NCBI GenBank assembly: GCA_016178705.1
Contig: JACOST010000028.1
Location: forward strand, 192,951-256,950
Direction of reading: 5' to 3'
DNA length: 64,000 bases
From: Deltaproteobacteria bacterium
GTDB taxonomy: Bacteria > Desulfobacterota > Binatia > HRBIN30 > JACQVA1
Under the pieces are notes generated by a model. That model was not told where the DNA came from. It did no database searches and worked only from the letters and a program-made list of their open reading frames with translations. Made by a program: the position numbers and the translations under genes. Below are positions 37,380-64,000 of the stretch, one piece after another; positions within the stretch are counted from its first letter, which is position 1; each line of letters begins with the position of its first letter.

Positions 37380-37382
37380 GCC

Positions 37383-42656: not shown

Positions 42657-43490
42657 TCAATCCGCCGCCAGCCGTGCGGCGTGTAGCGGCGCGCCGATCT
42701 CTTCATAGCCTCGCTGCGCCTGTTGCAGCAACTGCGCGCGCGTCACGTCGTCGCCGAGGACGGCGGCCAGCTCGGCGCGCCATTCACAGAGCGCGGGCGC
42801 GAGCGTCTTCGCTCCGGTGCGTTCGATCAGTTCGGCGGCGCTGGCGAGGGCGGCTTCGGCGGCGGCGCGGGCACCGGCGCCGTCGCGACGGAGGAGCGCG
42901 CGGGCGATGACGCCATGGGCCGCGGCTTCGTACATGCCGCGCAGCGAGCGGCGGCAAGGCGTGATCGCCTCTGCTGCCGCGGACTGCGCGGCCGATAGGT
43001 CGCCCGTTTGCAGCAGGGCTTCGGCCAGAAGCGCTGCTGCCATGCCTGCCGTTTCCTTTTCGACGTGTCCGAACATGCCGAGCGCGGCGCGCGCCGGTTC
43101 GATGGCATCGGCAGCTCGCCCGGCCGCGAGGTGTGCACCCATCGAACCTTTCACATCGGCGAAGAGGACGGTGACCTGCTTGCGCTCGCCTTCGAGCGCG
43201 GACTTCGATTGCAGGATTTTGTCGGCGAGATGTTTGGGAGTGTAGGCGCGAGGGGATAGGCTGTCAGCAGCGACTCGGGTCGTGGCTGTCACGGGGGGCG
43301 CTGGCGCGGCCACCGGGTGGGCGCACTGCGGGCAGAAACGCGCGGCGGTTGGTACCTCCGCGTCACATTCGGCACACCGCGGCGGCAGCGGCGCCGCGCA
43401 CTGCATGCAGAAGCGTGCGGCCGCGGGACTCTCGCTGCCGCACGTCGTGCAGATTAGCGGTGCGCGCCCGGCATTCGTGCGACGGTTCAC
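42657..43490 (-). CDS. Cyclase paralog H: internally deleted, zinc ribbon joined to TPR tail
   Basis: The 277-residue protein starts with the family zinc ribbons and the usual joint YTPKHLADKILQSKSALEGE and VTVLFADVKGSM, then jumps straight to a TPR-like tail (GAHLAAGRAADAIEPARAAL). Relative to full-length copies about 850 residues (most of the cyclase domain and all of the ATPase) are gone, yet the frame is preserved. It starts with GTG 43490, overlapping the end of cyclase G by 4 bases. It may be an adaptor-like leftover or a decaying gene. The 56 bases at 43183-43238 are identical to 36598-36653 in cyclase B. Confidence 0.8.
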   Translation of the reverse strand: MNRRTNAGRAPLICTTCGSESPAAARFCMQCAAPLPPRCAECDAEVPTAARFCPQCAHPVAAPAPPVTATTRVAADSLSPRAYTPKHLADKILQSKSALEGERKQVTVLFADVKGSMGAHLAAGRAADAIEPARAALGMFGHVEKETAGMAAALLAEALLQTGDLSAAQSAAAEAITPCRRSLRGMYEAAAHGVIARALLRRDGAGARAAAEAALASAAELIERTGAKTLAPALCEWRAELAAVLGDDVTRAQLLQQAQRGYEEIGAPLHAARLAAD

Positions 43491-45616
43491 GGTTCTAGCC
43501 CCACCTTCTTCAGCAGCTCCGTAAAACGCGGGTCGGAGCGCAGCGGGTCGAAGTCGGGATCGACCTTCAACTGCATCACGTAATACGAGCGCTGCTCCTG
43601 CGCCTGCGCCAAGGCCACGAGCGCCTCATCGAGTTGGCCGAGCCCGACGAGGATGCTGGCTACGAAGGCGGGAGAGACGAACTCATCATGCACCCGTTGG
43701 CGCAGATGGTTCAGAACCTTCGTCGCTTCCGCTCGGTTGCCCGCATCGGCATAGACGCGCCCGAGGACCGACTCGATTTCCGGAGAGGACGACAACTGCT
43801 TGGCCTTGAGCAGCTCGGCAATCGCCTCCGGAAATCTGCCGGCGCGCCCGTGGCTGTGCCCGAGCCACTCGTGTGCCCACCAGTTGTCGGGATCGATGGC
43901 GACCGCGGTTCGGAACTGCTCGATCGCGGCATCGTTGCGGCCGGCAAAGTAGAGGTCGTAGCCGTAAAAGATGCAGGCGTTGGGCGACAACGGATCGAGC
44001 TCGACCGCGCGCCGCCCCTCAGCGAATCCCTCATCGAACTGGCCGGCCGCCACCAGGAGGGAGGAGTACCATTGGTGCGCCGAGGCCAACTGCGGCTGCA
44101 GCGTCAACGCGGTCTGGAACTCGTGGCGTGAGCCTTCGATGTCCTGGTCGTACCAGAAGCGTACGAGGGCAAGCCATACGTGCGCTTCCGCCAGCGACGG
44201 GTCGAGCTGCAGCGCCTTCTCTGCCGCCTCGCGGGCGCGCGGCAGAGCCCGGTTCGACGGCAGCGCCCAGTCGACGATCCAGACGTAGTACCCGGCGAGG
44301 CCGACGTACGCCAAAGCATAGTTCGGGTCGCGCGCGATCGCTTGCTGCAGGTAGCGCATCGCCGTGTCCCAGTCGTTGAGCGTCTCGGTGGCATGCCGCG
44401 CCTTCAGGTAGAGCTGATACGCCTCCAGGTCCTCCGTCGGCTTCTGCTCGAGCGTCTGGCGCTCGCCGGCAGCGAGGGTGACCTGCAGCGCCTTCGCCAC
44501 CGTTTCCGCCACCTGGCTGCGGATGGCAAAGATGTCCCGCAGCTCGCGGTCGTAGCTGTCGGACCACAGGTGATAGCCGTCGGCGGCGTTGATGAGCTGG
44601 GCGGTGATGCGCACCTGGTTGCCGGCCTTGGCCACGCTGCCTTCGAGCACAGTGCCGACGTGCAGTTGCGCACCGATGCTTTCGATGGGTTCGTTCTTGC
44701 CTTTGAAGGCGAACGACGAGGTGCGGGCCGCGACGTGCAGGCCCGACACTTTGGACAATGCGGTGATCAAATCTTCCGTGATGCCGTCGCTGAAATACTC
44801 GTTCTCCTTGTCGGAGCTCATGTTGACGAAGGGCAGCACGGCGACGGACTTACGATCCTGGTCGCGAGTCAGCGGGGTGCGTACGGTGGGCGAGACGGAT
44901 GACGAACGATCCGCGGTGCGCGACCACGTGAGATAGGCACCCACAGCTCCCAGCACGACCACCGACACGATGGCGATAGGTAGCGTCCGCCGTCGCGTCA
45001 CCGCCGATTCCGGCGGCCGCGTCGGCTTCGCCTTATCGCTCGCCGCCGGCGCCTCGAATGAAGCCATGCCCTCGAGCCCGGCCTCGCGGATCTGCAGGGC
45101 CTCGTCGAAACCCTTCAGCGCATAGCTGCCGTGGGCGCGCCAGAGGACCGGCTGAAGGAAGGCATCGGCTTCGAGACGCTGCCGCGCACTGTCCGCCACC
45201 GCGGATGACATGAGCACTTGGCCGGGCCTTGCAAGGCCGGAGATGCGGGCGGCGAGGTCGACGGCGAGACCTTCGACGCGCGGCTGCGCCAGATCTCCAT
45301 CGGGTCCGGGCCGTTCGCTCACCTCGCCCATGTGGATGCCGGTGCGCACCCCCGGAAGGTCGGGCTCTTCGCGGTGTACTTGCTGGAGCCGCAGCGCGAA
45401 CAAGACCGCGGCACTGGGCGTCTCGAAGGTCAGGAAGCAGCCGTCGCCGGCCCAGTCGATGATGCGGCCGCCGGACTCGGCCGCCAGCCGTCGCACGTGG
45501 GCCCGATGCCGAGTGATCAACTCGCCGACGGCCTGGTCGCCCCGCTGCGTCTTCAGGGCGGTCGAGTCCGCCAAGTCGGTGAAGACCAGCGTCAGGATAC
45601 GGGAGATGTCCGTCAC
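43487..45616 (-). CDS. Cyclase paralog G: cyclase domain, membrane helix, TolB-like domain, TPR
   Basis: The 709-residue protein differs from its neighbours. It has no zinc ribbon; it opens directly with a class III cyclase domain (LTLVFTDLADSTALK, WAGDGCFLTF; VDLAAR where Asn is usual), then a membrane helix near 215-235 (LPIAIVSVVVLGAVGAYL), a TolB-like domain (VAVLPFVNMSSDKENEYFSDGI) and about ten TPRs. Such proteins occur widely as cyclase/TolB/TPR fusions with the TPRs outside the membrane. I start at GTG 45616, overlapping the end of cyclase E by 4 bases; an upstream frame to 45697 lies inside cyclase E. Its stop overlaps the GTG of H. Confidence 0.85.
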   Translation of the reverse strand: MTDISRILTLVFTDLADSTALKTQRGDQAVGELITRHRAHVRRLAAESGGRIIDWAGDGCFLTFETPSAAVLFALRLQQVHREEPDLPGVRTGIHMGEVSERPGPDGDLAQPRVEGLAVDLAARISGLARPGQVLMSSAVADSARQRLEADAFLQPVLWRAHGSYALKGFDEALQIREAGLEGMASFEAPAASDKAKPTRPPESAVTRRRTLPIAIVSVVVLGAVGAYLTWSRTADRSSSVSPTVRTPLTRDQDRKSVAVLPFVNMSSDKENEYFSDGITEDLITALSKVSGLHVAARTSSFAFKGKNEPIESIGAQLHVGTVLEGSVAKAGNQVRITAQLINAADGYHLWSDSYDRELRDIFAIRSQVAETVAKALQVTLAAGERQTLEQKPTEDLEAYQLYLKARHATETLNDWDTAMRYLQQAIARDPNYALAYVGLAGYYVWIVDWALPSNRALPRAREAAEKALQLDPSLAEAHVWLALVRFWYDQDIEGSRHEFQTALTLQPQLASAHQWYSSLLVAAGQFDEGFAEGRRAVELDPLSPNACIFYGYDLYFAGRNDAAIEQFRTAVAIDPDNWWAHEWLGHSHGRAGRFPEAIAELLKAKQLSSSPEIESVLGRVYADAGNRAEATKVLNHLRQRVHDEFVSPAFVASILVGLGQLDEALVALAQAQEQRSYYVMQLKVDPDFDPLRSDPRFTELLKKVGLEP

Positions 45617-48600
45617 GATCCGAGCTCCTGCGCCAACCGCTCCGCGTATCCCGTCGCGCCCATCTCGGTGAAGAGGCGATGCGCCTCGCGCAGCCACTGC
45701 TGCGCTTCAGAGGCGTCGGCTCGCAGCGCCGCGAGCCGGGCGCGCTCGACGTAGATCTGCGGCTCGTAGGAGCGTGCGCCGGTCGACTGCACCAGCGCCT
45801 GGGCGTGATCCAGTGCGGCTGCGATGGCGACGCTGGCGCCGGCTTCATCGATGGCGCGGCGCACGCGCGCCAGAGCGAGCTGGGCGCGCACCTCGGCGAC
45901 TCGCATCTGCATGCGCACGGCAGTCTCGATCGCTTCCTCGACCAGCGCGCGCGCGCGGGGCTCGTCGCCCAGGCCGAGGTGCGCTTCGGCGAGCGCCGCC
46001 AAGTAGTAGGCGTCCAGAAAGCGCCCCGCCTGGTTGGCGCGACCCAAGTCCAGAGCGAGCTCCAGATTCTCGCGGGCGCTCTGCCACTCCTTGGCCAGGA
46101 CGCAGGCCATGCCGTAGTGGCCGTAGGCGCCGACTCGGCCGAGGACGCTGCCGATCTTCTCAGCGGACTCGATGGCTCGCCGGCCCATCGATTGGGCGCC
46201 CGACGGGTCTCCGGCACGCGAGAGGTTGCGCGCCGACCAGAAGTCGATCCAACTCGCCATCTCATTCCCACCGAAGCGACGGGCGCGCTCGTCGGCGCGG
46301 CGGAGCGCTTCTGCGGCCTCCTGGAAGCGGCCGAGATCGGTCAGGATCACCCCGCAGTGCCAGAGTGAGTCGGCGGTGCAGATGCCGATCGTCGCGATGC
46401 CCAGGGCGGGATCGACTTCGCCGAGCGCGATCTGCTCGGCGTTCATTCTCTGCGCGGCGACGAGATCGCCGAACAGCCAGAGTGAAAAATCGAATGCCGT
46501 GCGCGCCGACCAACGCAGCTCCGGGTCGCCGGTCGCATCCGCCAGAACGACGGACTCCTCGAAGATCGGAATGGCGCGCCGCGGGCTTCCGTCCAGGGCA
46601 TGGATGAGCCCGAGCGAATAGTGGAGACGCACCTGTTCGCGCACGTCGCCGGCCGCCACGGCCAGGGCCTTACCCTCCGCGAAGATCTCAGCGACGCGCT
46701 CGCTGGTCATTCCCAGTCGCCAGCCGAAGAGCAGCAACTGCGACGTCGCCTCGCGGCGCAGAGCTACGCCCGCGTCGAAGGACGGCGCCGACTGCAGGAT
46801 CCCCCACACCTTCTCCCAGTGGCGCACCGCTTCCACCGGACTGTCGAAGCCGGCGACACGAGCGGCCCGCGCGTACCACTGCGACGCGGTCAACGCGTCT
46901 CCCGCCTGCTCCCAATGATAGGCGAGCAGCGCCGCGCGTTCATCGAGCTTGGTGGCGTGCCGTTGCTCGGTGGCACGCGCCACCGCGGCGTGCACCTGCG
47001 CCCGGCGTGCGCCGAGCTGCGAGCGGTACGCGACTTCCTGCGTCAGCGGATGCTTGAAGGCGTACTCGACCTCAGGATAGAGCGCCGTCTCGTAGACGAA
47101 CTCGCCGGCCCGCAACGTATTGAGCGCCGCGGCGAGCCTAGGCGAAGACAGCCGACCGCCCTCGTCCGCCGCGACCACCGCGGCCAGAATCGCGCCGGAG
47201 AACTCCTTGCCGATCACCGACGCGGTCTGCAGCGTGCGCTTCTCGTCGTCGCCGAGACGGTCGATGCGCGCCGCGAGCACCGTCTGCACCGTCGCCGGAA
47301 TCTCCACCGCTTCAACCGAGCCGACCAGGCGATAGGCGCCGTGCGCGCCCGTCAGGCGGCCGCTTTCCAGCAGCGACTGCACGACCTCTTCAATGAAGAA
47401 CGGGTTGCCGCCGGTGCGCCGGTGCACGTACGCCGATAGGCCCGCCACCGAAGGGTCGGATCCCAGCAGATCGGCGAGCAACTCCCGGGTCGCCTCCGGC
47501 CCGAGCGGCAGCAGCGGTATCTGCTGGTAGTACGCCTTGCGCATCCAGTCGGCTCCGTACTCCGGGCGGAAGTTCACCAGCCAGAGCGTACGGGTGTTCT
47601 GCACAGCGGCGATCGAGTGCGCCAGAAAGGCGTCGCTGCCGGGATCGATCCAGTGCAGGTCGTCGAGAAACAGGACGGTCGGCTCGCGCACACTGCGCGC
47701 TTCGGTCAGATGACGCACGAAGGCGAAGAGCTTTTGCTGTCGACCCTCAGGGCTCATGGCGGGCGCCGGCCTGCTGGGATCGGCGACGCCCATGAAGTCG
47801 AACAGGATCGGCAGCAGCTCCTGGAACGCGTCGTCGAGCAGCAGTAACTCACCGGCGATCTTGCGGCGCGCCTCGTGATCGGTGTCGCGCTCGGCGATGC
47901 CGAAGATGTCGCGCAGCATCTCCAGCAGCGGCAGGTGAGGAATGGTCTTGCCGTGCGCCGGGCAGTGTCCTTCGTTGACGCGCACGCCGCGGGCCCGGCA
48001 GCGCTCAACGAACTCGAGGCAGAGGCGGCTCTTACCGGTGCCGGCGTCGGCAACCACGCCGACGACCTGTCCTTGGCCACCGATCGCCGCGTCGAGTGCG
48101 CCCTTGAGCGTCGCCATCTCGCGCTCGCGGCCGACGAACTTCGAGAAGCCGCGCGCGCGGGAGATGTCGAGGCGCGTGCGCAACGACCCGACGCCTTGCA
48201 GCTCGTAGGCGCGCAGCGGGGCGCTCACGCCTTTCAAGTCGAACTCGCCGAGATCGCGGAGTTGAAAGTACCCCTCGACGAGGCGCGCGGTGTGCGCTGT
48301 CAGGTACGTGCTGTCGGCGGCGGCGCGCGATTCCATGCGTTGCGCCAGGCCCACGGTGTGACCCTGCGCCGTGTAGTCCATGCGCAAGTCGTCGCCGATC
48401 CTGCCGACCACCACCTCGCCCGAATTGATCCCGATGCGCGTCGACAGGCTCACACCGGACGTGCGCCGCAGCTCGTCGGCGTAGCCCTTGAGCGCGTCGC
48501 GCAGATGCAGCGCCGCGTAGCAGGCGCGCTGCGCATGGTCCTCGTGCGCGATCGGCGCGCCGAAGAGCGCCATGATGCCGTCGCCGGTGTACTGGTTCAC

Positions 48601-49020
48601 CGTGCCTTCGAAACGATGCACGCCCTCGGTGAGAATCTGAAAGAAGCGATCGAGGATCGTGTGCCACTGTTCGGGATCAAGTTGCTCGGCCAACTCCATC
48701 GAGCCCTTCACATCGGCGAACAGCACGGTGACCTGCTTGCGCTCGCCTTCGAGCGCCGACTTGGATTGCAGAATTTTGTCGGCGAGATGTTTGGGGGTGT
48801 AGGCGCGGGGATCGGGGTTCAGGGGTCGGGGATCGGTCTGGCTTTCAGCTTTCGACCTGTGACTTGTGGCTGTTGTTGCCGCGCTGCATTCGAGGCAGAA
48901 CTTCGCGGCGGGCGGCAGCTCGGTCCCGCAGCTCGCGCAGCGGGCAGCGATGGCCGCGCCGCACTCAAGGCAGAACTTCGCCCGCTCGGGGCTCTCGCAA
49001 CCGCACTTCGCGCAGTTCAT
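45613..49020 (-). CDS. Cyclase paralog E: zinc ribbon, cyclase, AAA ATPase, TPR
   Basis: The 1135-residue protein has zinc ribbons (C3/C6, C17/C20, C28/C31, C42/C45), cyclase domain (about 97-276; metal D103 and D147; Q143 for Lys; G224 for Asn; R228 kept), Walker A ADAGTGKS (324-331), Walker B VLFLDDLHW and long TPR-like repeats. The ATG at 49020 overlaps the stop of F (ATGA), and its own stop overlaps the GTG of G (GTGA). It is the second of four coupled genes. The linker (48806-48838) uses the CGATCCCCGACCCCTGA word found also in cyclase A. Confidence 0.88.
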   Translation of the reverse strand: MNCAKCGCESPERAKFCLECGAAIAARCASCGTELPPAAKFCLECSAATTATSHRSKAESQTDPRPLNPDPRAYTPKHLADKILQSKSALEGERKQVTVLFADVKGSMELAEQLDPEQWHTILDRFFQILTEGVHRFEGTVNQYTGDGIMALFGAPIAHEDHAQRACYAALHLRDALKGYADELRRTSGVSLSTRIGINSGEVVVGRIGDDLRMDYTAQGHTVGLAQRMESRAAADSTYLTAHTARLVEGYFQLRDLGEFDLKGVSAPLRAYELQGVGSLRTRLDISRARGFSKFVGREREMATLKGALDAAIGGQGQVVGVVADAGTGKSRLCLEFVERCRARGVRVNEGHCPAHGKTIPHLPLLEMLRDIFGIAERDTDHEARRKIAGELLLLDDAFQELLPILFDFMGVADPSRPAPAMSPEGRQQKLFAFVRHLTEARSVREPTVLFLDDLHWIDPGSDAFLAHSIAAVQNTRTLWLVNFRPEYGADWMRKAYYQQIPLLPLGPEATRELLADLLGSDPSVAGLSAYVHRRTGGNPFFIEEVVQSLLESGRLTGAHGAYRLVGSVEAVEIPATVQTVLAARIDRLGDDEKRTLQTASVIGKEFSGAILAAVVAADEGGRLSSPRLAAALNTLRAGEFVYETALYPEVEYAFKHPLTQEVAYRSQLGARRAQVHAAVARATEQRHATKLDERAALLAYHWEQAGDALTASQWYARAARVAGFDSPVEAVRHWEKVWGILQSAPSFDAGVALRREATSQLLLFGWRLGMTSERVAEIFAEGKALAVAAGDVREQVRLHYSLGLIHALDGSPRRAIPIFEESVVLADATGDPELRWSARTAFDFSLWLFGDLVAAQRMNAEQIALGEVDPALGIATIGICTADSLWHCGVILTDLGRFQEAAEALRRADERARRFGGNEMASWIDFWSARNLSRAGDPSGAQSMGRRAIESAEKIGSVLGRVGAYGHYGMACVLAKEWQSARENLELALDLGRANQAGRFLDAYYLAALAEAHLGLGDEPRARALVEEAIETAVRMQMRVAEVRAQLALARVRRAIDEAGASVAIAAALDHAQALVQSTGARSYEPQIYVERARLAALRADASEAQQWLREAHRLFTEMGATGYAERLAQELGS
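48806..48838 (-). repeat. GATCCCCGACCCC-type short-word repeat in the linker of cyclase E
   Basis: It encodes the TDPRPLNPDPRA joint. The 18-mer at 48819-48836 matches 2674-2691 in cyclase A on the opposite strand. Confidence 0.8.
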
Positions 49021-52000
49021 GCGCCGATCTCCTTCGCCAGCCGCTCCGCATGTCCCGTGGCGCCGATGGATCGGTAGAGAGCCAGCGCCTCCCGCACCAG
49101 CCGATCGGCAGCCGGCGTGTCACCGAGCGCGGCGCTCAGACGCGCGCGCATCTCCAGGATGCGCGGTGACAGAGCGCGACCCTCGATCGAGTCGACGAGG
49201 TGCTTGGCGCGGTCGATGGCGGCCCCGATCTCTGCGCGCGGCACGACCCCATGGGTCGCCAGGAGAGTCCCGGCCAGCGCCAGCTGGGCCGCCGCCTCGT
49301 AGTAGTGGCAGCCGCCGGCGCTCGCGAGATCGATGCCCTCGCGCGCCGCGGCCACGGCCTCGGCGCGTTGGCCGAGTGCCAGATGTGCCTCCGCGAGTAC
49401 GGCCAACCCCAGGGGAAGGAGCGCGCGCAGCACGCGGCGATCCCGAGCGATCGCGGCGCTCTCGCGGAGGGCGTCGCGAGCGGCGGCGGGCTGTCCTTCA
49501 AGCAGATACGCAAACCCAAGGGTCAGGTACGCGCACATCCGGGACGCCTCGTTGTCGAGCTTCTCCGCAATCTCCAGGCTCCGACGACCGTGCTCCAGGG
49601 TGGACTCGGTGACTCCGCATGTGTACGCGAGCATCGCCCAGGTGACTTGCATCCAGGTGAATATCTCGAGCTCACCTGATTCTTCCGCGACGCGCTCCGC
49701 CTCTCTGACCTGGCTCCATGCCTCCGTGAGGCGCCCCAGATACGTGAGGGCGTGTGCGCGCGCGTGAAGCATCCCCGTTCGCGGGCTGTAGCCGACGATG
49801 TCCTTGCCCAGCCGATTATCCGATCCGACCTCTTCCAGCACCCGCGCCGACCACTCGAGCCCCGCCCGGCCATCGCCCCCGTGGAAGTGCCCAAAGGCTG
49901 GGAACGTTCCAATCGCCGCGCGCAATCCCGGATCGCCACATTCCCGCGCCAAGAGTGCAGCCTCCTCGCCGTAGCGGACGTAGTCATGCGCAGAGCCTGC
50001 GACACTAAACCGCACGAGGCCGTAGCGGCCAACCAACAGAGCCGTTGCGGCGCGATCACCGAGCCCCTCCGTGAGGGCGCGGCCTTCTGCGAACACCGCC
50101 GCCGCCTCTTCTTCACTGCCTCCCATCCGCCAGCCGAGCGAGAGGAGCTGGTTGCATGCGTGCAGCGCCAGCTCGCTGCGCTCGCTGACGTCCTCCACAC
50201 CGGGCGCCAGCTCGCGCACGCGGCGCCAGTGGCGCAGTCCTTCGCGCGGGTCGGAGAGGCCGGCCCACTCGGCGGCGCGACGGTGCCAGCGCGCCGCACG
50301 GCCGCGGTCCTCCGCGTCGGCCCAGTGCTGCGCGATCTCGGCGGCGCGCTCCTCGAGGTTGCCGCCAGCATCTTCTAGCGCCTGTGCCACCGCGGCGTGC
50401 ACACGCGCGCGCCGCTCACGCAACTGCGAGCGCTCGGCCACCTCTTGCGTCAGTGGGTGTTTGAAGGAGTACTCGAGCTGCGGATAGAGCGCCGCTTCGT
50501 AGAGGAACTCCGCCGCCGCCAGCGCCGCCAGCGCTTGGCTGAGTGCCGTCTCGTCGATCGCCGCGACCTTTGTCACCACCAGCCGCAACAACGCCTCGCT
50601 GAACGTCTTACCTATCACCGCCGCGGTTTGCAGGATTTGTTTCTCGCGCTCCGCCAGCCGATCGATGCGTGCCGCCAGGACGGCCTGCACACTCGCCGGG
50701 ACCTCCAGTGCTGCAACCGGGGTCGTCAGCCGGTAGGCACCGCGCTTCCCCGCGAGATGGCCGCTCTCCACCAGCGACTGCACCACCTCCTCGATGAAGA
50801 ACGGGTTGCCCTTCGTTCGCTCGTGAATCATCTCGGGCAGCGCCGCGACACTCGGATCCTCACCAAGTTGATCGCGTAACAACGCGCGGATTGCCTCCGG
50901 TCCCAGCGGTTGTAGCGGGAGGTGTTGATAGTACGAGCGCTGCATCCAACGCGCCTGGTATTCGGGACGGAAGTTGACGAGCCAGAGATCGCGGGTGGCG
51001 GGGACGCTCTCGACGGTCGTCTCCAGGAAGGCGTCGCTCGCGCCGTCGAACCAATGGAGGTCTTCGAGCAGGAATACCCGCGTTCCACCGTACCCCGGGT
51101 CGTGGAGAATCCGCTTCACCACACCGTGTATGCGCTTCTGCCGCTGCTCGGGGTCGATCGCGGGGGACGGGTTCGCAGCATCGGGCACGCCGAAGACGTC
51201 GAAGATGAAGGGCAGGACCTCGCGGAAGCCCTCGTCCATCAGCAGCAGGCGGCCAGCGATCTTCGCCCGCGTCGTTTCCGGCGTGTCTTCATCGGTGATG
51301 GCGTAGAAGGCGCGCCAGACCTCGAGCATCGGCAGCATCGGGATCGACTTGCCGTGCGCGACACCGCGTCCCTCAAGCACCGGAATGCCGCGCGCCCGGC
51401 AGCCGTCGAGGAACTCGGCGCACAGGCGCGACTTGCCGGTGCCTGCGTCGGCCACCACACCCACCACTTGGCCGCTACCGCTGCGGGCGCGTTCAAGTGC
51501 GGCATCGAGCACGGCCATATCGCGATCACGTCCGACGAAGGTCGAGAGCCCGCGCGCTCGCGAGCGGTCGAGGCGCGTGCGAAACGTTCCCACGCCCTCG
51601 AGGTCGAAGAGGCCGACGGGTTCGGTGACGCCCTTCACCTTGGTGCGACCCAGGTCCTGCAACTGGAAGTAGCCCTCGACCAACCGCGCCGTGTGCTCGG
51701 AGAGACAGATGTGTCCGGACTCGGCGAGCGCTTCCATGCGTTGCGCGAAGCCGACGGTGTGTCCTTGCGCAGTGTAGTCCATGCGCAGATCATCGCCGAT
51801 CTTGCCGACCACGACATCGCCGGAATTGAGACCGATGCGCACGCCGAACGGCACTCCGTGCCGCGCCCGGACTTCCTTGGCGTACTCGCGAACGGCGTCG
51901 CGGATGTGCAGCGCCGTGTAGCAGGCGCGGTGCGCGTGATCCTCGTGCGCGATCGGCGCGCCGAAGAGCGCCATGATGCCGTCGCCGGTGTATTGATTCA

Positions 52001-52445
52001 CTGTCCCTTCGAAGCGATGCACGCCATCGGTGAGAATGGCGAAGAAGCGATCGAGGATGCTGTGCCACTCTTCGGGATCGAGTTGCTCAGCCAGCTCCAT
52101 CGAACCTTTCACATCGGCGAAGAGGACGGTGACTTGCTTGCGCTCGCCTTCGAGGGCGCTGCGCGAGGTCAGGATCTTGTCGGCGAGGTGCTTGGGTGTG
52201 TAGGAAAGGGGGCTCGGAGGAAGGTTGTTCGTTGTTAAGTTGTTTGTTGTTGGGGAAGAACCGATCTGGCTTTGGGCTTTCAACTCGTCGCTTGAAGCTA
52301 GGGCCGCGCGACATTTGCGGCAGAACTTGGCAGTGGGCCGGTTGCTGGCACCGCAGGTTGGGCACGCGGCTTCCAGCGGCGCGCTGCACTCTTCGCAGAA
52401 AGCGCTATCGGCGAGATTCTCAGTGTGGCACTTGGGGCATTTCAT
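49017..52445 (-). CDS. Cyclase paralog F: zinc ribbon, cyclase, AAA ATPase, TPR
   Basis: The 1142-residue protein is the first cyclase after the P450 gene. It has zinc ribbons (C3/C6, C17/C20, C28/C31, C42/C45), cyclase domain (about 105-285; metal D111 and D155; Q151 for Lys; G232 for Asn; R236 kept), Walker A ADAGTGKS (332-339), Walker B VFLLEDLHW and TPR-like repeats. No Shine-Dalgarno is apparent before its ATG, 67 bases after the P450 stop; the gap holds a short-word repeat. Its stop overlaps the start of E by 4 bases. Confidence 0.88.
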   Translation of the reverse strand: MKCPKCHTENLADSAFCEECSAPLEAACPTCGASNRPTAKFCRKCRAALASSDELKAQSQIGSSPTTNNLTTNNLPPSPLSYTPKHLADKILTSRSALEGERKQVTVLFADVKGSMELAEQLDPEEWHSILDRFFAILTDGVHRFEGTVNQYTGDGIMALFGAPIAHEDHAHRACYTALHIRDAVREYAKEVRARHGVPFGVRIGLNSGDVVVGKIGDDLRMDYTAQGHTVGFAQRMEALAESGHICLSEHTARLVEGYFQLQDLGRTKVKGVTEPVGLFDLEGVGTFRTRLDRSRARGLSTFVGRDRDMAVLDAALERARSGSGQVVGVVADAGTGKSRLCAEFLDGCRARGIPVLEGRGVAHGKSIPMLPMLEVWRAFYAITDEDTPETTRAKIAGRLLLMDEGFREVLPFIFDVFGVPDAANPSPAIDPEQRQKRIHGVVKRILHDPGYGGTRVFLLEDLHWFDGASDAFLETTVESVPATRDLWLVNFRPEYQARWMQRSYYQHLPLQPLGPEAIRALLRDQLGEDPSVAALPEMIHERTKGNPFFIEEVVQSLVESGHLAGKRGAYRLTTPVAALEVPASVQAVLAARIDRLAEREKQILQTAAVIGKTFSEALLRLVVTKVAAIDETALSQALAALAAAEFLYEAALYPQLEYSFKHPLTQEVAERSQLRERRARVHAAVAQALEDAGGNLEERAAEIAQHWADAEDRGRAARWHRRAAEWAGLSDPREGLRHWRRVRELAPGVEDVSERSELALHACNQLLSLGWRMGGSEEEAAAVFAEGRALTEGLGDRAATALLVGRYGLVRFSVAGSAHDYVRYGEEAALLARECGDPGLRAAIGTFPAFGHFHGGDGRAGLEWSARVLEEVGSDNRLGKDIVGYSPRTGMLHARAHALTYLGRLTEAWSQVREAERVAEESGELEIFTWMQVTWAMLAYTCGVTESTLEHGRRSLEIAEKLDNEASRMCAYLTLGFAYLLEGQPAAARDALRESAAIARDRRVLRALLPLGLAVLAEAHLALGQRAEAVAAAREGIDLASAGGCHYYEAAAQLALAGTLLATHGVVPRAEIGAAIDRAKHLVDSIEGRALSPRILEMRARLSAALGDTPAADRLVREALALYRSIGATGHAERLAKEIGA
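52221..52256 (-). repeat. AAC-type short-word repeat in the linker of cyclase F
   Basis: On the coding strand AACAAC/CTTAACAAC words give TTNNLTTNNL before PPSPLSYTPK. It is the same word family as in cyclase A (1311-1341 and 1603-1689). Confidence 0.8.
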
Positions 52446-52490
52446 GGGAATGGTCTCATCGGATCATTTGGTCATGGGCTCTTTGCGGAA

Positions 52491-52526
52491 AATGAATCAA
52501 TGACTCGATGACTCAATGGCTCGATT
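52491..52526. repeat. GACTCAATGA-type short-word repeat at the P450 3' end
   Basis: Reiterated AATGAATCAATGACTCGATGACTC words span the P450 stop codon (52513-52515) and its last codons, and most of the gap to cyclase F. Confidence 0.7.
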
Positions 52527-54378
52527 CCGCGAGGTTCGGATAGCGCCGGCGCATTTCCTCCAGCATCCATTCGCGCACTGCGGGGTCGTTCTCGACGAGC
52601 GCGCGCAGCCGCTCGCGCGAGATGGCGTAGGTGATCATGTGCGACATCGCGGTGACCGTCGCGGATCGCACGGTGTCGAGCAGCACGCCGCGTTCGCCGA
52701 CGACGTCGTGCTCGCCGACCGTGGCCACGCCTTTGCGTCCGATGGTCACCGAGGCGTGGCCTTCCTCGATGATGTAACACTCCGGCGATTCGCCGCCCTC
52801 GACGCACAGCATGTCGCCGGGCTCGAAGCTCATTGGGTAGGCCGTCGCGGCGAGATGTTGCAGTTCGTCGCGCGTGCAGCGTTGGAAGAGACTGTTGCGC
52901 GATAACAGCGTCACCGTGGCGGCCAAGCGGTCTCCCGTGCGCACGGGAACCGAGTCGGCACGCGTCGGCTCGCTCTCGATCCGCTGCCGCAATTCGGCGC
53001 GCCAACGCAGATCGGCCTCCGCGCCGCCCGGACGAAGCCCGCGCTCCGCAGACGCCGGGGTTGCTGTTCTCACCGCGGTCGTCTCGGTCGGAATCGCTGC
53101 TACCGGCACAGATCGCCGCGCCGCCGCCGAACGGCAGGCGACATGCAGTGAGGTGAGTCCACGCAGTGTGAGGCGGTCTTGGAAATGTGGCGGCTCGCCG
53201 CTCAGCTCGATGGAGTTGAAACGGGCGAGCATGTTCTTGAAGGTGATGCCGATCTCCGCGCGCGCCAGCGCCGCTCCGAGACAGAAATGGACTCCACCGC
53301 CGAATGACACGGGTTCGATTTCGGTGCGGGTGACGTCGAGTTGATCAGGGTGGGGATAGTGGGCGGGGTCGTGATTGCCCGCGCCCAGCAGCGCGAAGAC
53401 CTGCTCGCCCGCCGGGATGGTGATGCCGCCGATGTCGATGGCCGCCTCGGTCACGCGATTCACCAACTGGGCGGTGCCGTCGTAGCGCAAGAACTCGTCG
53501 GGCAGATTGGCGAAGAGCGAGTCATCGGTGCGCAGCAGCGCAAGTTGGTCGGGATGGCGCAACAACGCCAGCAATCCATTGCCGAACAAGTTGGTGGTCG
53601 TCTCGAAGCCCGCGCCGAAGAGGAGCGACGCCATCGTGGAGAGTTCATCGTCAGAGAGCCGATCACCGTCGCTTCCCGCCCCCGCCAACGCGCTGAGCAG
53701 GTCCTCGCCCGGTTGTTTTCGTTTCTCCGCGATCAATCCCAGGAAATATTCTTTGATGGCGACCTGGGCGACGTCGGCCGCTGCGAGCTGCTCGGCCGTC
53801 GGTTGCATTTCGAAGATCGCCACCAGATCGCGAACGAGACCTCGGAACCGCGGGCGGTCCGTTTCGGGCACGCCGAGCATCACGCCGATGATCGTCACCG
53901 GGAGTGGAAAGCCGACGGCTTCCAGCACGTTGCCGCCACCGGCCTCGGCGATCGGATCGAGCAGCGCCGTCACCGTGCGTTCGATGACCGGCTTGAGGTT
54001 CTCGATCATGCGCGGAGTGAACGACTTCGACACCAGCTTGCGCAGCCGCGTGTGTTCCGGACCGGTGGTATTGAGCATGGAGTGTTCGCCGGCGGTCAAC
54101 GACGGATGTGTGCGCCAATCGGGACCAAAGCGCTGTTCGATCTGCGGCGCGTAGTCCTTGCCGAGGCGCGGATCACGCATCGCCGCCCAGCAGTCGTCGT
54201 AGCGGCTGAGCAACCACATCCCCATCTTGGTGCGATGCACCGGCGCCGTTTCGCGCAGTTGATGGTAGAGCGGGTAGGGATCGGCGCGTCCTTCGGGCGT
54301 GAAGAACAGTTCGTTGACGACACGCTCAGCGGCTTCGAACCGATCCGTGTCCTTCCCATTGTGCTGATTCGGCATCAC
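52513..54378 (-). CDS. Cytochrome P450 fused to a cyclic nucleotide-binding domain
   Basis: Residues 15-415 of this 621-residue protein are a complete P450: I-helix AGFETT (256-261), ExxR E295-R298, and haem loop FGGGVHFCLG with C366. After a 60-residue Ala/Arg/Pro-rich linker, residues about 485-605 form a Crp-type cyclic nucleotide-binding beta-roll: LFQRCTRDELQHLA, GDMLCVEGGESPECYIIEEG and the phosphate-binding cassette GERGVLLDTVRSATV, with E562 and R571 intact. So ligand binding is plausible. It lies directly before the cyclase F-E-G-H genes on the same strand, with a GGAGG ribosome-binding site. The substrate is not predictable. No ferredoxin partner is seen nearby. Confidence 0.92.
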   Translation of the reverse strand: MMPNQHNGKDTDRFEAAERVVNELFFTPEGRADPYPLYHQLRETAPVHRTKMGMWLLSRYDDCWAAMRDPRLGKDYAPQIEQRFGPDWRTHPSLTAGEHSMLNTTGPEHTRLRKLVSKSFTPRMIENLKPVIERTVTALLDPIAEAGGGNVLEAVGFPLPVTIIGVMLGVPETDRPRFRGLVRDLVAIFEMQPTAEQLAAADVAQVAIKEYFLGLIAEKRKQPGEDLLSALAGAGSDGDRLSDDELSTMASLLFGAGFETTTNLFGNGLLALLRHPDQLALLRTDDSLFANLPDEFLRYDGTAQLVNRVTEAAIDIGGITIPAGEQVFALLGAGNHDPAHYPHPDQLDVTRTEIEPVSFGGGVHFCLGAALARAEIGITFKNMLARFNSIELSGEPPHFQDRLTLRGLTSLHVACRSAAARRSVPVAAIPTETTAVRTATPASAERGLRPGGAEADLRWRAELRQRIESEPTRADSVPVRTGDRLAATVTLLSRNSLFQRCTRDELQHLAATAYPMSFEPGDMLCVEGGESPECYIIEEGHASVTIGRKGVATVGEHDVVGERGVLLDTVRSATVTAMSHMITYAISRERLRALVENDPAVREWMLEEMRRRYPNLAESSH

Positions 54379-54610
54379 AGTCCTCCGGGATTTGGTTGAG
54401 TGCGCGGTCGGGTTCAGTCGTGATTGAGACGCTGAGTAGGGCCACAGCTAGCAGCCGCCACTTGGGCGCGCAAACCGCCGTCGCCGCAAATCGCAATCGC
54501 TCCTCGAGTCGCGATCGTATGACGTCGAGTGGGCTTCGCGACGTTGTGTTTCCCGTGCGCGCGTGACAAGCGTCCGAAATGCCCTGCCTCGCAATCGCCG
54601 GAGTTAGCCG

Positions 54611-56104
54611 ATGACGTCGACGCGCTGGGAAACGCTCGATCCGCGCACGCCGGTGATCGTCGGCGTTGGCGTGGCGACGCAACAACTCGACGACCCGGGG
54701 CGCAGTCTCGAAGCGATCGAGCTGATGATTGCCGCGACGCTCACGGCGGCCGAAGACAGCGGCGCCCCCAGTATCCTCAAGGCGGTTCAGCGCGTCGCCG
54801 TTCCGGGCGGCTTATGGCAGTACTCCGACCCCGGCCGCATCATTGCACAGCGCATCGGCGCCGCCGGCGCGCAGACGGTGCTGGTGGCAACCGGCATCCC
54901 GCAGCAGACACTGTTGAACGACGCGTATGCGGCGATCCGCGACGGAACGCTGGAGGTGGCGCTGATCGTCGGTGGCGAAGCGGCGCGGCGAGCCGCGATG
55001 GCCCGCCGGCTCGGCGTCACCGTCGTGGATACGGTGCAGGAGGAAGCGACGCCCGACGATCTGCAGCTCCCAACCGATGAGATCATCACCAGCATCGAGA
55101 TCGACGCGGGGGTGTCCTCCGCGATGCAGCCCTTTGCGCTCATCGACAGCGCGCTGCGCTATGCCGAAGGGCGTTCGCTCGATCAGCACCGCGACGAGAT
55201 TGCGCGACTGTGGGCGGGATTCAGCACGGTGGCGTCGCAGTCCCCCCACGCCGCCTTCCCCGAGCCGCGCGACGCGGCGTTCATCCGCGAACCCAGTGCG
55301 TCGAATCGTCCAATCGCATTCCCATACAACAAGTGGCACTGCGCGCAGATGAACGTTGACCAAGCGGCGGCGCTGCTGGTGTGCAGCCTCGACGCGGCGG
55401 TGCGGTTCGGCGTCGACCGCGATCGGGTGGTGTTCCCGCTCGTCGCGCTTGAATCGAGTTTCTCGCTGCCGGTGCCGAAGCGGCGCGACTTGCATCGCTG
55501 GCCGGCGATGGAGGTGCTAGGCGCGGCGGCCGAGGCGCACCTCGGTCACGCGCTGTCGGACATCGCGTTCGTGGAACTCTACAGTTGCTTTCCCGCTGCG
55601 GTGCGCGTTCAACAACGTGCCCTGCGACTGCCCAGCGACGGCGTGCCGACCATCACGGGCGGCGAGACCTTCGCCGGGGGGCCGTGGAACAACTTCGTAC
55701 TGCAGGCGACGGTTGCGATGATCGAGCGCCTGCGAGTGGAACGAGATGTGAAGGGCCTCGTCTCCACGGTGAGCGGGATCGTGAACAAGCCCGGCCTCGC
55801 CGTGTACGCGACGCGACCCGAGCCGATGCCCCTACTGCTCGGTGACCTGGGTGATCAAGCCGAGCGGGCAACGCCGCGCGTCGAGTTGATTGCCGGGCAC
55901 CGCGGCCCGGTTCGAGTGGCGGCATACACCGTCACCTACGAGCAAGCGGGGCCGACGAAGTGCACCATCATCGCCGACACGCCGAGCGGCACGCGCTGCA
56001 TGGCATCGTCCGACGACGCCGCGTTGGCGCGCCGCGCGACGCACGAGGAGCTGATCGGGACCACCGTCGTCATCGACGGCATCCGGTTCGAGCTCCGAAC
56101 GTGA
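54611..56104 (+). CDS. Thiolase-like protein (TLP1/SCP2-type) with C-terminal OB-like domain
   Basis: The 497-residue protein has the thiolase fold layout (TPVIVGVGVATQQL, the SAALIVCSLDAAVRFG-like AALLVCSLDAAVRFGV, DIAFVELYSCFPAAV, TGGETFAGGPWNNF) plus an extra C-terminal beta domain (VRVAAYTVTYEQAGPTKC, IADTPSGTRCMAS) typical of thiolase-like proteins type 1. The nucleophilic Cys region (here VATGIPQQTLLNDAY) has no Cys, and the C-terminal CxG is also missing, so ordinary thiolysis is unlikely. It diverges from P450 across 232 bases and may act on the same lipid or terpenoid substrate. Confidence 0.8.
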   Translation: MTSTRWETLDPRTPVIVGVGVATQQLDDPGRSLEAIELMIAATLTAAEDSGAPSILKAVQRVAVPGGLWQYSDPGRIIAQRIGAAGAQTVLVATGIPQQTLLNDAYAAIRDGTLEVALIVGGEAARRAAMARRLGVTVVDTVQEEATPDDLQLPTDEIITSIEIDAGVSSAMQPFALIDSALRYAEGRSLDQHRDEIARLWAGFSTVASQSPHAAFPEPRDAAFIREPSASNRPIAFPYNKWHCAQMNVDQAAALLVCSLDAAVRFGVDRDRVVFPLVALESSFSLPVPKRRDLHRWPAMEVLGAAAEAHLGHALSDIAFVELYSCFPAAVRVQQRALRLPSDGVPTITGGETFAGGPWNNFVLQATVAMIERLRVERDVKGLVSTVSGIVNKPGLAVYATRPEPMPLLLGDLGDQAERATPRVELIAGHRGPVRVAAYTVTYEQAGPTKCTIIADTPSGTRCMASSDDAALARRATHEELIGTTVVIDGIRFELRT

Positions 56105-58073: not shown

Positions 58074-59960
58074 ATGGGTGAATCAGCGCGATGTGGGGAT
58101 TCTCGCTGGGTCAGGCTGTTGGCTGCGGTGGCGTTGGCAGTCGCGATGGTCGGCGGCGCCACGCGGCCGGGGCACGCCACCATCAAGTATGGGGCGATGC
58201 AGGTCTCAGGCAGCTTCGAGGCGCAGAACTTGGCGCGCGATCCGTCGCCGACCGAGTTTCACTTCATCCAGCAACGCAATACCTTCCGATTGCGAATCGA
58301 CTGGGACTGGGTGCAGAACGGCAACTTCCTCGACAAGGTCAACGTCCCGTTCGCCGAGTCTTCGAAACTCTTCATGCTCTATCGCGGTGTCTACGATAGC
58401 TTCTACGACATCGCGCCGACCGAGAACCAGATCGGCCAGACGATATTCGACGACAAGGTCGGCGGTCCGATCGACGGTACCGGTTCGCGCTTCAACAATT
58501 CCACGCGCAGCGCCGACAAGTTCGAAAACCAGTTGCGGGAGTTCTACATCGACACCAAACTCAAGGATCTGCCGGTCAGTCTCCGTACCGGCCGGCAGCA
58601 AGTGATCTGGGGCGAGAGCGACCAGTTCCGCTTGATGGACATTTGGAACCCGCTGGATACCACGTGGCACTTCCAACAAGAGTCGTGGGACAACATCCGC
58701 ATCGCCACCTGGCTGGCCAAAGCCTTGTGGGATGTCGGCGATGTTGGTCCGTTCTCCAACACGTTTGTCGAAGTCGTCTACAACCCGTTTGATTTCCAGC
58801 CTGGCGCGAAGGTCGACTTTTTGCCGCGACCCTGGGCGCTGCCGTTTCCAGATCCGCTGCGCGGCGGACAGGTGCAGTACGACCCAAGGATCAACCGGTA
58901 CGTCTCACCCACGTTCAATTTGGAAGGCACGAGCCTGCGCAAGGGAGCGTTCCAGCGCAACCCGGCGGACGCCAGTGAGATCGGTACGCGGGTGCACGCG
59001 GTGACACCACAGGGCCTCGAGTTTTCGCTGAACTACTTGTACGGCCGCGGCCGCGGTGTCGGCGCCGCGTCGCCGTTCGCCGTCAAGATTCACTCGATTA
59101 CAACGAACGGGCACGGTCAAAGCGCACTTGGAATGCCGATCGAGGATGCGAAGTTTCTGGGCAAGAGTGTATACCCGGTCGCTGTGGATGCTGAAGTAAT
59201 CCACCCATACATGCACATCTTTGGCCTTACGGGGAACTACTTCGAAGGTGACTTTACGCAAGCCGTCTTCCGCTTTGAAAGCGCGTACGTGATGGGTGAG
59301 CCGTTCCAGACCACGGACCCAAGCAAGCGCGTCACGGTCACGAACGAGGATGGTGTTTCCAGCGGAACACTGGCTCCGATCGGGTTCGAACAACGCGATG
59401 TGTGGGCCGGGATGATCGGCTTCGACCGCCCGACCTGGATTCGCTGGCTTAATTCGAAGGCCACCTGGTTCCTCACCGGCCAAGCGTTTTGGAACTACAC
59501 GACCGGCGCGAACGTCGATCAGCTGGTCGGCAACAACAGCGCCGGCGACTCTCCGTACTTCACGCCGAAGGCGGGTCAGCCTGGCTCGAACACGCAAGGC
59601 CTCGGTGTCTGGCAGGGCGGTCAATTCAACGGTTTCACCGAGCGACTCCAGGATGCTTCGGTCGCCGGCAACGGCGATAACATCCGCCGCTGGGAGAGTT
59701 TGATCACGATCGCGGGCACCAGCTTCTACCGCGGTGGGACCATTGTGCCGTTCATTGCCGACGCGTTCGATCCCGTCAATATGAACGACGAGTTCCTCTA
59801 CAACCTCGATTGGTTCGCGACCAACGATCTGATCTTCAGCTTACAACAGAAATTCTTCACCGCGTTCGGGCGCACCGTGCCGAGCAACGACCCGTGGTTC
59901 GCCGGCGGCCGATTCACTCGCCGCGATGAGACGGGGGTGAAAGTCACATATCAGTTCTAA
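58074..59960 (+). CDS. DUF1302 outer-membrane beta-barrel protein
   Basis: The 628-residue protein has a signal peptide (LLAAVALAVAMVGGA...GHA) and alternating beta-strand pattern typical of DUF1302: QRNTFRLRIDWDW, LREFYIDTKLKDLPVSLRTGRQQVIWGESDQFRLMDIWNPLD, and ends in VTYQF with a terminal aromatic as in porins. Proteins of this family occur beside hydrocarbon, sterol or lipid catabolism genes and are proposed to be outer-membrane channels; function here is not defined. A strong ribosome-binding site (AAGGAGGGG) precedes the ATG. A hairpin terminator follows. Confidence 0.9.
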   Translation: MGESARCGDSRWVRLLAAVALAVAMVGGATRPGHATIKYGAMQVSGSFEAQNLARDPSPTEFHFIQQRNTFRLRIDWDWVQNGNFLDKVNVPFAESSKLFMLYRGVYDSFYDIAPTENQIGQTIFDDKVGGPIDGTGSRFNNSTRSADKFENQLREFYIDTKLKDLPVSLRTGRQQVIWGESDQFRLMDIWNPLDTTWHFQQESWDNIRIATWLAKALWDVGDVGPFSNTFVEVVYNPFDFQPGAKVDFLPRPWALPFPDPLRGGQVQYDPRINRYVSPTFNLEGTSLRKGAFQRNPADASEIGTRVHAVTPQGLEFSLNYLYGRGRGVGAASPFAVKIHSITTNGHGQSALGMPIEDAKFLGKSVYPVAVDAEVIHPYMHIFGLTGNYFEGDFTQAVFRFESAYVMGEPFQTTDPSKRVTVTNEDGVSSGTLAPIGFEQRDVWAGMIGFDRPTWIRWLNSKATWFLTGQAFWNYTTGANVDQLVGNNSAGDSPYFTPKAGQPGSNTQGLGVWQGGQFNGFTERLQDASVAGNGDNIRRWESLITIAGTSFYRGGTIVPFIADAFDPVNMNDEFLYNLDWFATNDLIFSLQQKFFTAFGRTVPSNDPWFAGGRFTRRDETGVKVTYQF

Positions 59961-60849: not shown

Positions 60850-63800
60850 CTACAAACCCGAAACCATAGACCGTTTCCGTTGCATGGCCGCGCCGCCGAG
60901 GATGAGCAGGGTGACGAAGGCAAGGGTGAGCATCACAGCGAGGTGTTTTTCGCGCTCGAAGCGTTCACCCACATGGGCGAGCCAGAGCACGCGCGACAGT
61001 TCCGGCCCGGCTTCGTCGTAGTCTGAGAGATTGAGGCCGCTGGAGACTTCGGCGGCTTCGCGCAGATACGCGTTGCCGGCGTCCACTGCCGATGGATTGA
61101 CTTCGGCCGCCACGGCCGAGGAGAGCGCCGTGTACGGCGTGAAGTCGGGTGTGGTCGTGAAATAGTCACGCATGTCGGTGGTATAGCGGTCGTACTGGGA
61201 TTGCGGGCCGACGCCGAGCAGCAGTTCCATCGTCTTCAGCATGCTGACGTTGGAATGGTGAACGTGCGACAGGAAGCCGTGCTTGATGTACGGTCCGATC
61301 GCCAAGTCGATGGTGCGATGCGCCGACACGTGATCCTGGGCGTCCTGCGCGTCGTCCTCGCTGATGAAAATCGCCATGTCGTTCCAAAACGGGCTATGAC
61401 TGAGCGCGTCGATGACCATGCCCAGGCCACGGTCGTTGTCGGCGACTGCCGCGCGGGGCGTCGGCATGTTGGGCGTCGCTCCGAAGGTGTGATCGTTGGG
61501 CAACCAGATGAAGAGGAACTGCGGTAGTTCGCCACTCGTGGTGTACTGATCGAGTTCATCGATGAACAGCCGTGCCCGTTGGACATCGGTCTTGTCGGGC
61601 AGAATGTTCGACGGATAGTCGAGTTTGAAGTTCGGCCACACCTCGTTCTTCAAGATGTCGACGTTGATGCCGGCGGCGCTCAGCGCCGCGACATCTCCGG
61701 CGAAAATCAGGCCGGCATTGGCGGCGAGATTGCTCACGCTGCCGGCGGCTTGTACCAACTTGGAGAACAGACCCTGGACCCCTCCACCGTTCTTTCCAGC
61801 TTCGAGCCGTGACAGCAGCGCGAAGGCCTCCCCGTAGACCCGGAACGGAACCTGTTCGCGATCCATCAGCTCGAAGATGTAGCCGGCTTTGGAAAAGCCT
61901 TCCTGTCCGGTCTGCGCCATCGCGTCGGAGATACCGCCGCCGTTGTAGTTGAACGGCCACGTTTTTTCGGTCCAGTCGGTGTCGTTGCCTTGGTCGGTCC
62001 ATTCGTGCCCAGGGATCGAGACTTCGGCGTCGCAATAGAAGTTGTCGCCGGTGGCGAACTGACGCGCGAGTGCGTGATGATTCGGCGTGACGTCGTCGCC
62101 GAACAACGTCAGACGACTGTCACGGCTGGCGCCCGGCAGATCGAGATCACCGAACACTTGATCGTAGGTGCGGTTCTCCTTCAGGATGAAGACCACATGC
62201 TTGATCTGTTGCGACGCGCTGCTGCCGAAGTCGGGAGGCAGTGGGTGCCCGTGTTCGAGATCGCCGTCGCCAGCATGGCCATCGACCCGTTGAACCGTAA
62301 CCGGGTCGAAGCCATTGAGCGCGCGCACCGTCGCGGTACCGGCATCGAGGTCGACGTGATCGACCCCATCGATGATCGACACGCTGCCTTTGATGATGCG
62401 GCCAATGTAGTACGGCGTGGCTCCCAGGTTCTCGTCGCTGATGTCGATCAGTTCGGCCCCGTTGCCACCGACGCCGACACCCTTGGCGTTGGCGACGTAG
62501 AGGCGCGTACCATCGTGGGTGAGTGCCAGCGCGCTCGGATACCAACCGGTGGGGATGAAGCCGAGTGACTGAAATGTGCGCGCGGCCGGATCGGCGGCGA
62601 TGACTTGGACCGCGTTGATGCCCGCGTCGGCAACATAGATACGCCGTCCGTCGGCGCTCACCGTTACCGCGTCGGGGTAGAGACCCTGCAGTCCGAGCGA
62701 AGCGCCGCCGGAGTCGAAGCGGTTCAGCTGTAGCTCCGTGGCTAGCGTAAAGGTTGCGGTGTCGATCACCGCGAGCGAGTCGAGGTTGGTGGCGGTAACG
62801 TACAGCAGCGCGCCGTCGGGGCTGAGTGTCATGGCGGTAGGATGGCTGCCGCCGAACACGGTGCGGTTGTCGATATGCGCGCTGCGGCCGATCGGAATGG
62901 ACTTCTGGAGTCGTGGCTGTGTCGGGTTGCTCAGATCGACGACGATCACCGACGAGCGCGAGAAACCGTTGGGATCGAATGGTGGCAGCGGTGCCGGAAT
63001 CAGTCCGGAGGGATTCCCATTGTTCAAACCCCACGAGGTGACGAACGCATGTTGCCCATCAGCGGCGAGCTTCACGCTGTAGGGGAAGTTGCCGAAATCA
63101 GGGCCGTGCATCGTCTCGCCGGTTTGCAGATCGACGGTCCACAACGCGTTGCTGCGCAGACCGACGACGTAGAGATAGCGCCCATCATGGCTGACGGTCA
63201 GGCCGGTCGGGAATGTACCGTCGGCCAGAGTGGCGACGACTTCCGGGGGCTGGAGTTCGCCATGTTCGAAGCGAAGGCGTTGCACCGTGTTCAAGGTGCC
63301 GTTGGGGACGAAGACTTGCTCGCCATCGGGGCTGAGCGCCAAGCCGAGATAGTGGGGCACCGGCACGCGACTCACGGTCCTCGATGCGGTTTCGATCACC
63401 TGCAGGTTGCGCTGAAAGTTGTCGTTGCCGAAGCCGTCGTTGGTGACGATCACGTGCGCTTCGTCTGGCGTGAGTGCCAGGTTGAGCGGAAACGTGTCGA
63501 TCGGCACTTGCTCGCCCATCGGCTCGACTCGGCGACCGTTGGGCAGCACGCCGCTTGCACTCGACTGCGGACCGGCGACCGCCTCGCCGGCCGGCGCCCG
63601 ATAGACCTCGATCGATGCCGGGCAAGTAGCTAGCGCAACGTTTACCGCCCGCACCAGCTCTTCCACCGTCACGAGGTGATCGCCGTTTGCATCGAGCGGA
63701 CGGCACAGCCGCAGGGCGCCACCGCTGCCCAGCGCGAGGTTCACGCCGTACACGAGTTCCTCGACCGTGACCTCGCCGTCGTCGTTGCAGTCACCGACGC

Positions 63801-63894
63801 AGAGCGCGCCGTGGGCGCGAGCGGGCAGGGCGGCGAGCAGGAGAGTGATGCCGAGCATCGTGACGAGGGGGCGGAAGGACTGAGACAAAGGCAT
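60850..63894 (-). CDS. Exported EF-hand / YncE-like propeller / phosphoesterase, C-terminally anchored
   Basis: The 1014-residue protein starts with a signal peptide, then two dockerin-like EF-hand loops (CVGDCNDDGEVTVEELV and LDANGDHLVTVEELV with paired cysteines), a YncE-type beta-propeller of about 450 residues (repeated LALSPDGxxVFV units), and a phosphoesterase domain of the phospholipase C/acid phosphatase family (HVVFILKENRTYDQVFGDL, IFISEDDAQDAQDHVSAHR). It ends with a membrane helix (AVMLTLAFVTLLILGG) and basic MQRKR tail. So it is envelope-anchored; substrate is unknown. The start at 63894 has an AGGAG site. Confidence 0.88.
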   Translation of the reverse strand: MPLSQSFRPLVTMLGITLLLAALPARAHGALCVGDCNDDGEVTVEELVYGVNLALGSGGALRLCRPLDANGDHLVTVEELVRAVNVALATCPASIEVYRAPAGEAVAGPQSSASGVLPNGRRVEPMGEQVPIDTFPLNLALTPDEAHVIVTNDGFGNDNFQRNLQVIETASRTVSRVPVPHYLGLALSPDGEQVFVPNGTLNTVQRLRFEHGELQPPEVVATLADGTFPTGLTVSHDGRYLYVVGLRSNALWTVDLQTGETMHGPDFGNFPYSVKLAADGQHAFVTSWGLNNGNPSGLIPAPLPPFDPNGFSRSSVIVVDLSNPTQPRLQKSIPIGRSAHIDNRTVFGGSHPTAMTLSPDGALLYVTATNLDSLAVIDTATFTLATELQLNRFDSGGASLGLQGLYPDAVTVSADGRRIYVADAGINAVQVIAADPAARTFQSLGFIPTGWYPSALALTHDGTRLYVANAKGVGVGGNGAELIDISDENLGATPYYIGRIIKGSVSIIDGVDHVDLDAGTATVRALNGFDPVTVQRVDGHAGDGDLEHGHPLPPDFGSSASQQIKHVVFILKENRTYDQVFGDLDLPGASRDSRLTLFGDDVTPNHHALARQFATGDNFYCDAEVSIPGHEWTDQGNDTDWTEKTWPFNYNGGGISDAMAQTGQEGFSKAGYIFELMDREQVPFRVYGEAFALLSRLEAGKNGGGVQGLFSKLVQAAGSVSNLAANAGLIFAGDVAALSAAGINVDILKNEVWPNFKLDYPSNILPDKTDVQRARLFIDELDQYTTSGELPQFLFIWLPNDHTFGATPNMPTPRAAVADNDRGLGMVIDALSHSPFWNDMAIFISEDDAQDAQDHVSAHRTIDLAIGPYIKHGFLSHVHHSNVSMLKTMELLLGVGPQSQYDRYTTDMRDYFTTTPDFTPYTALSSAVAAEVNPSAVDAGNAYLREAAEVSSGLNLSDYDEAGPELSRVLWLAHVGERFEREKHLAVMLTLAFVTLLILGGAAMQRKRSMVSGL

Positions 63895-64000
63895 CGCAAA
63901 TCTCCTACGTGTTGATGGCGTAACGAAGCCGCCAGCCTGCGTCAAATGAAAACTGCGAGTCGAGGAAAACTTGAGGGCCCGAGGGAAATCCGTTACCGTG

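Follow-up and report, generated by a model that had tools for sequence, protein, structure and literature searches.

Results

Layout of the gene and its product

The window (the whole 64,000-nucleotide stretch of DNA analyzed here) encodes on its minus strand a single chain in which a flexible linker joins a complete cytochrome P450 to a cyclic nucleotide-binding domain (CNBD), likewise complete, at the C-terminal end; two cyclase-type genes follow it (Table 1). The open frame comprises 621 codons plus a stop when read from the GTG at 54378, from which all residue numbers are counted (C366, E562, R571, etc.). Since a GGAGG, read by eye, lies at 54386-54382, 6 bases 5' of an ATG at 54375, the latter is the likelier start and would give a product of 620 residues.

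Table 1. Coordinates of the fusion gene, the domains of its product and the adjoining cyclase-type genes in the window.
Feature	Positions	Strand	Basis or placement
P450-CNBD fusion gene	52513..54378	minus	Open frame and Pfam; start probably ATG 54375
Cytochrome P450 domain, residues 17-416 (E295, R298, C366)	53131..54330	minus	Pfam, matches to solved P450s, model
Linker, residues 417-484; pLDDT <50 at 420-446, helix 453-468	52927..53130	minus	Alignment, model
CNBD, residues 485-613; cassette G561-T574	52540..52926	minus	Pfam, alignment, model
cycA, double zinc ribbon / class III cyclase / AAA_16 / TPR protein	49017..52445	minus	67 bp downstream of the fusion
cycB, second protein of the cycA kind	45613..49020	minus	4 bp overlap with cycA

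A preliminary description of this gene had credited it with full P450 signatures, and indeed the haem-thiolate cysteine motif (FGGGVHFC366LG), the ExxR motif (E295-x-x-R298), and the acid-Thr motif of the I helix (AGFETTT, residues 256-262) are all present, together with the P450 fold. The same description proposed a domain search for PF00067 with PF00027; both exceed their curated cut-offs in this protein and in five further homologues. In the window's protein, p450 scored 98.7 bits against a cut-off of 22.8 (E 4.5e-28; best stretch 86-401), and cNMP_binding (PF00027) scored 52.1 bits against 27.5 (E 6.7e-14; residues 516-598), with the beta-roll, short cassette helix, and C-terminal helices of a CNBD all seen in the structural model. 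At an E of 0.1, the Pfam scan returned nothing beyond these two families; it found neither the fused reductase or ferredoxin domain of a self-sufficient P450 fusion nor the C-terminal HTH of a CRP/FNR regulator. The phosphate-binding cassette, said to be intact, does contain E562 and R571 (VVGE562RGVLLDTVR571SATV), and it aligns without gaps to solved cGMP-dependent protein kinases.

Predicted structure and nearest solved proteins

The model of the fusion protein (40 sequences) had a mean pLDDT of 86.6 and a pTM of 0.66, with the P450 extending to about residue 417, the CNBD at 482-612, and a short helix at 562-566 within the cassette; a model of the CNBD by itself was poor (mean pLDDT 58.3) and was set aside. 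The P450 part aligned with solved P450s across residues 28-415, and P450BioI and CYP107P2 were among the top-ranked Foldseek matches (33-40% identity, TMt 0.91-0.94). The individual values, all for the same P450 fold over about 390-400 residues, were 40% identity in structural alignment and TMt 0.91 for CYP107P2 (8yhn), 33-34% and 0.93-0.94 for P450BioI (3ejb), which we take to be CYP107H1, and 37-38% and 0.84-0.86 for PikC CYP107L1. By convention, assignment to a P450 family calls for identity of roughly 40% or above with its named members. The solved CYP107-type chains, at 380-411 residues, are no longer than a P450 alone, and none has a CNBD, unlike the fusion.

Self-sufficient P450 fusions of the P450 BM3 and RhF types carry a redox module behind the P450. 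The protein described here likewise has a P450 and then another domain in one chain, but by Pfam its tail is a CNBD alone. That domain matches in sequence the lysine acetyltransferase Pat (4ava) and the regulatory domains of PKA and PKG, enzymes which are governed by CNBDs, and the GER form of its cassette is shared with two domains of solved cGMP-dependent protein kinases. Their effector parts are acetyltransferases or kinases, whereas the corresponding part of the fusion is a haem monooxygenase. CRP/FNR regulators also have a CNBD in common with the fusion, but lack a counterpart in it for their HTH. An encapsulin-type CNBD (Family 2B encapsulin) was considered and rejected, as the shell-protein model reached 23 bits against a cut-off of 400 and matched residues 483-607 only.

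Conservation of the fusion

A search of the class (148 genomes, best 8 candidates per genome) recovered six full-length fusions in 5 genomes, namely the window's own, G459 (two copies, 80% and 77% identity), G360 (60%), G445 (59%), and G523 (58%), and all six exceed both Pfam cut-offs. The same six were returned by a CNBD profile search (at most 28 candidates scored) at 231.6-258.5 bits, the next CNBD scoring 61.7 bits. In a tree of 40 P450s the fusions form one clade (support 100/99), whose sister group consists of five P450s, from G466, G467, G465, G174, and G470; Pfam detected a CNBD in none of these five. With six homologues in five genomes, an artefact or a chance joining is ruled out and the fusion is real.

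Among the 15 pairs of fusions, the P450 showed 61-87% identity and the CNBD 56-92%, against 25-75% for the linker. Since the ranges for P450 and CNBD are alike, the CNBD is conserved roughly as strictly as the P450, while the linker drifts. Residues G561, E562, R571, A573, and T574 are invariant in all six proteins. Residue 572, however, is S, S, A, T, T, and T, and because of this variation the nucleotide preference is not settled by sequence.

The architecture had been called unusual, and as far as tested it is: it occurs in 5 of 148 class genomes, and neither a plasmid match of 80% coverage nor a paper describing it was found. In a phylum sample of 395 genomes (best 3 candidates per genome), matches at E 1e-30 came from 15 genomes, every one of them in the window's own class. 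Distribution is patchy, since G463, the one other genome of the window's family among those listed, gave nothing at E 1e-80. Across 84,980 species, each represented by one genome, a scan queried with two short CNBD peptides and therefore sensitive to close relatives only, confirmed 7 loci, i.e., 4 fusions and 3 CNBD proteins without a P450; unrelated P450-CNBD fusions could exist elsewhere. Those 4 fusions belong to three Deltaproteobacteria metagenome assemblies and lie on the same contigs as the fusions of G459 (two), G523, and G360. Mobile origin was backed neither by tblastn against 72,556 plasmid records (1312 records matched, but never over 80% of the query in a single location) nor by a CNBD alignment scan of viral contigs (0 of 9 candidates confirmed). 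Within the searches made, the P450-CNBD fusion was thus found only in this one clade. Among the papers listed by searches of open-licence PMC literature there was no description of such a fusion and no report of cyclic-nucleotide control of a P450 through such a domain; in the excerpted text of PMC3359211, P450 and cyclic-nucleotide terms refer to different genes.

Other CNBD proteins of the genome

The window's genome has 16 PF00027 matches, and the 15 that reach E 1e-8 compare with 2-8 in five relatives. Seven of the 10 other CNBD proteins scanned are likewise enzyme, transporter, channel, or iron-sulphur fusions, the partners (L056-L067) being a patatin phospholipase, a sulphate symporter, an MscS channel, ferredoxin domains, a glutaminase, a FeeM-like domain, and an MMPL transporter; of the remaining three, one has a Crp HTH and two are a CNBD alone. 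Glu and Arg stand at the standard cassette spacing in 9 of 12 CNBD loci (best 12 of the 16 matches), including the fusion and L064, and the pair is not kept in L062, L063, and L066. As 3 of the 12 loci have no Arg there, its retention is common but not automatic.

Cyclase neighbors of the fusion

Neighborhoods were compared by tblastn. Among the matches listed, a PF00211 match lies within 2.5 kb of the fusion at 4 of the 6 loci, at distances, determined by hand, of 374 bp in the window's genome, 2461 in G459 copy 1, 979 in G445, and 1494 in G523; the 2.5 kb limit was fixed after these distances were known, and common ancestry means that the loci are not independent. Order and strand of the cyclase neighbors vary. 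Behind the fusion of G459 copy 1, a cycA-like start at 33 bp (84% identity over 37 residues) is ended by the contig edge, so that the window's gene order is repeated there; a full-length cycA relative of G459 (80%) sits on contig C160. The neighbor in G445, by comparison, is only 32-33% identical to cycA. No relative of these cyclases was detected by tblastn on the contigs of G360 (15 kb) and G459 copy 2 (7 kb), which we scored as misses because at least 2.4 kb was available on each side.

These frequencies bear on the possibility that the cyclase neighborhood is a coincidence, i.e., that the fusion sits in a cyclase-rich island and receives a signal that originates elsewhere in the cell. PF00211 matches number 48 in this genome, five of them (one weak) in the approximately 16 kb adjoining the fusion (36054-52142, minus strand), the cyclase neighbors are of more than one subfamily, and two of the six loci have none. 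Conversely, a randomly placed gene would fall within 2.5 kb of a cyclase with a frequency of 0.052 in the window's genome and an estimated 0.023-0.044 in the other four, i.e., 2-5% as against the four of six loci counted above. None of the five stretches around the sister P450s (11.7-19.9 kb each) contained a cyclase relative by tblastn. Manual merging reduced the 28 P450 matches of the window's genome to 22 places, and of these a single one, the fusion itself, lies within 2.5 kb of a cyclase match. Considering also the fusion-then-cycA order in G459 copy 1, we regard coincidence as doubtful, though it is compatible with control of the P450 by a nucleotide. A promoter and terminator scan of 48900-54700 found neither and so speaks neither for nor against an operon.

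CyaB-type cyclases depend on metal-binding Asp residues and on Lys, Asn, Thr, and Arg for catalysis. In alignment with CyaB, both metal-binding Asp residues, the Thr, and the Arg are retained in cycA, but the Lys is replaced by Gln and the Asn by Gly; by motif, the same replacements occur in cycB and in the neighbors at L068 and L072, while the G445 neighbor (L071), compared by eye, has Gln for Lys and keeps Asn. Of the five PF00211 matches beside the window's fusion, motifs were located in three genes (38570-41953, 45613-49020, and 49017-52445), and in each of them Gln and Gly take the place of the Lys and Asn of canonical class III cyclases. Because of these replacements, cycA and cycB may make little or no cyclic nucleotide. 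By eye, however, cyclases encoded in L107 and L109 of the same genome have the full catalytic set, so the cell can probably make cyclic nucleotide.

Several further observations concern these surroundings. The cyclase gene ahead of the fusion in G459 copy 1 (L068:4445-7198) lies in pieces in different frames and may be broken or misassembled. L072 encodes a GAF / sigma-54 activator / Fis protein (9973-11571, minus) that is 66% alike to a neighbor at fusion locus L071 (12204-13745, minus). On the other side of the window's fusion lies a thiolase-like gene (54611-56104), a relative of which (L084:8416-9906; 35%) adjoins a CNBD gene without a P450 in a distant lineage (an Acidimicrobiales record); as tblastn detected no relative of it near any of the other five fusions, in the stretches searched, this association is probably coincidence. 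Farther out are a DUF1302 protein (58074-59960) and a gene with Lactonase-propeller and Phosphoesterase family matches (60850-63945), short parts of which match L069 (G459 copy 2) in two places.

Discussion

The likeliest reading of this architecture is allosteric control by a nucleotide, and we consider it fairly probable that the protein is a CYP107-like monooxygenase governed by cyclic nucleotide through its C-terminal CNBD. In its favor, the two domains share one conserved chain and are conserved in parallel, the cassette is intact, and a cyclase neighbor recurs; against it are the residue changes in cycA and cycB, the two loci of six without a cyclase, the low identity of the G445 neighbor, and the richness of the genome in cyclases. 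A soluble CYP107-like P450 would presumably receive its electrons from separate redox partners, while the CNBD would bind cAMP or cGMP, between which the sequence does not discriminate. Nucleotide binding moves the C-terminal helices of PKA and CRP-type domains. By analogy, binding in the fusion may shift its own C-terminal helices, and perhaps the helix at 453-468, and so could alter how substrate enters, how electrons are delivered, or the oligomer state. Local supply or sensing of the signal would fall to the products of the adjacent cyclase/AAA/TPR genes.

Alternatively, the CNBD might bind its ligand as a docking or localization module, by dimerization or by holding the P450 beside a partner, with turnover unchanged. 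The intact cassette suits such a role, and the low confidence of the model across linker residues 420-446 suggests that the CNBD could act independently; no partner was identified, and we rate this as unlikely. Less likely still is a CNBD that is a fold only, binding no cyclic nucleotide in the cell and serving a structural role or another ligand: the nearest cyclases lack canonical residues and nucleotide binding is read from sequence, but the cassette residues are invariant although CNBD identity drops to 56%, and GER...R is common to the solved cGMP-dependent kinases.

Allosteric control of the P450 could conceivably extend to a signal-to-oxidation module within one operon, an idea we offer tentatively and with low confidence. 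Turnover of the P450 would be gated directly by a second messenger, the cyclase/AAA/TPR proteins would sense the cue and set the messenger, and the fusion would be one of this lineage's set of CNBD-tagged enzymes and transporters. To our knowledge, control of bacterial P450s operates through gene expression, substrate, and redox-partner supply. If the proposed control is true, a P450 carrying its own cyclic nucleotide receptor would connect second-messenger signaling directly to oxidation chemistry, and would represent a natural design for a switchable monooxygenase.
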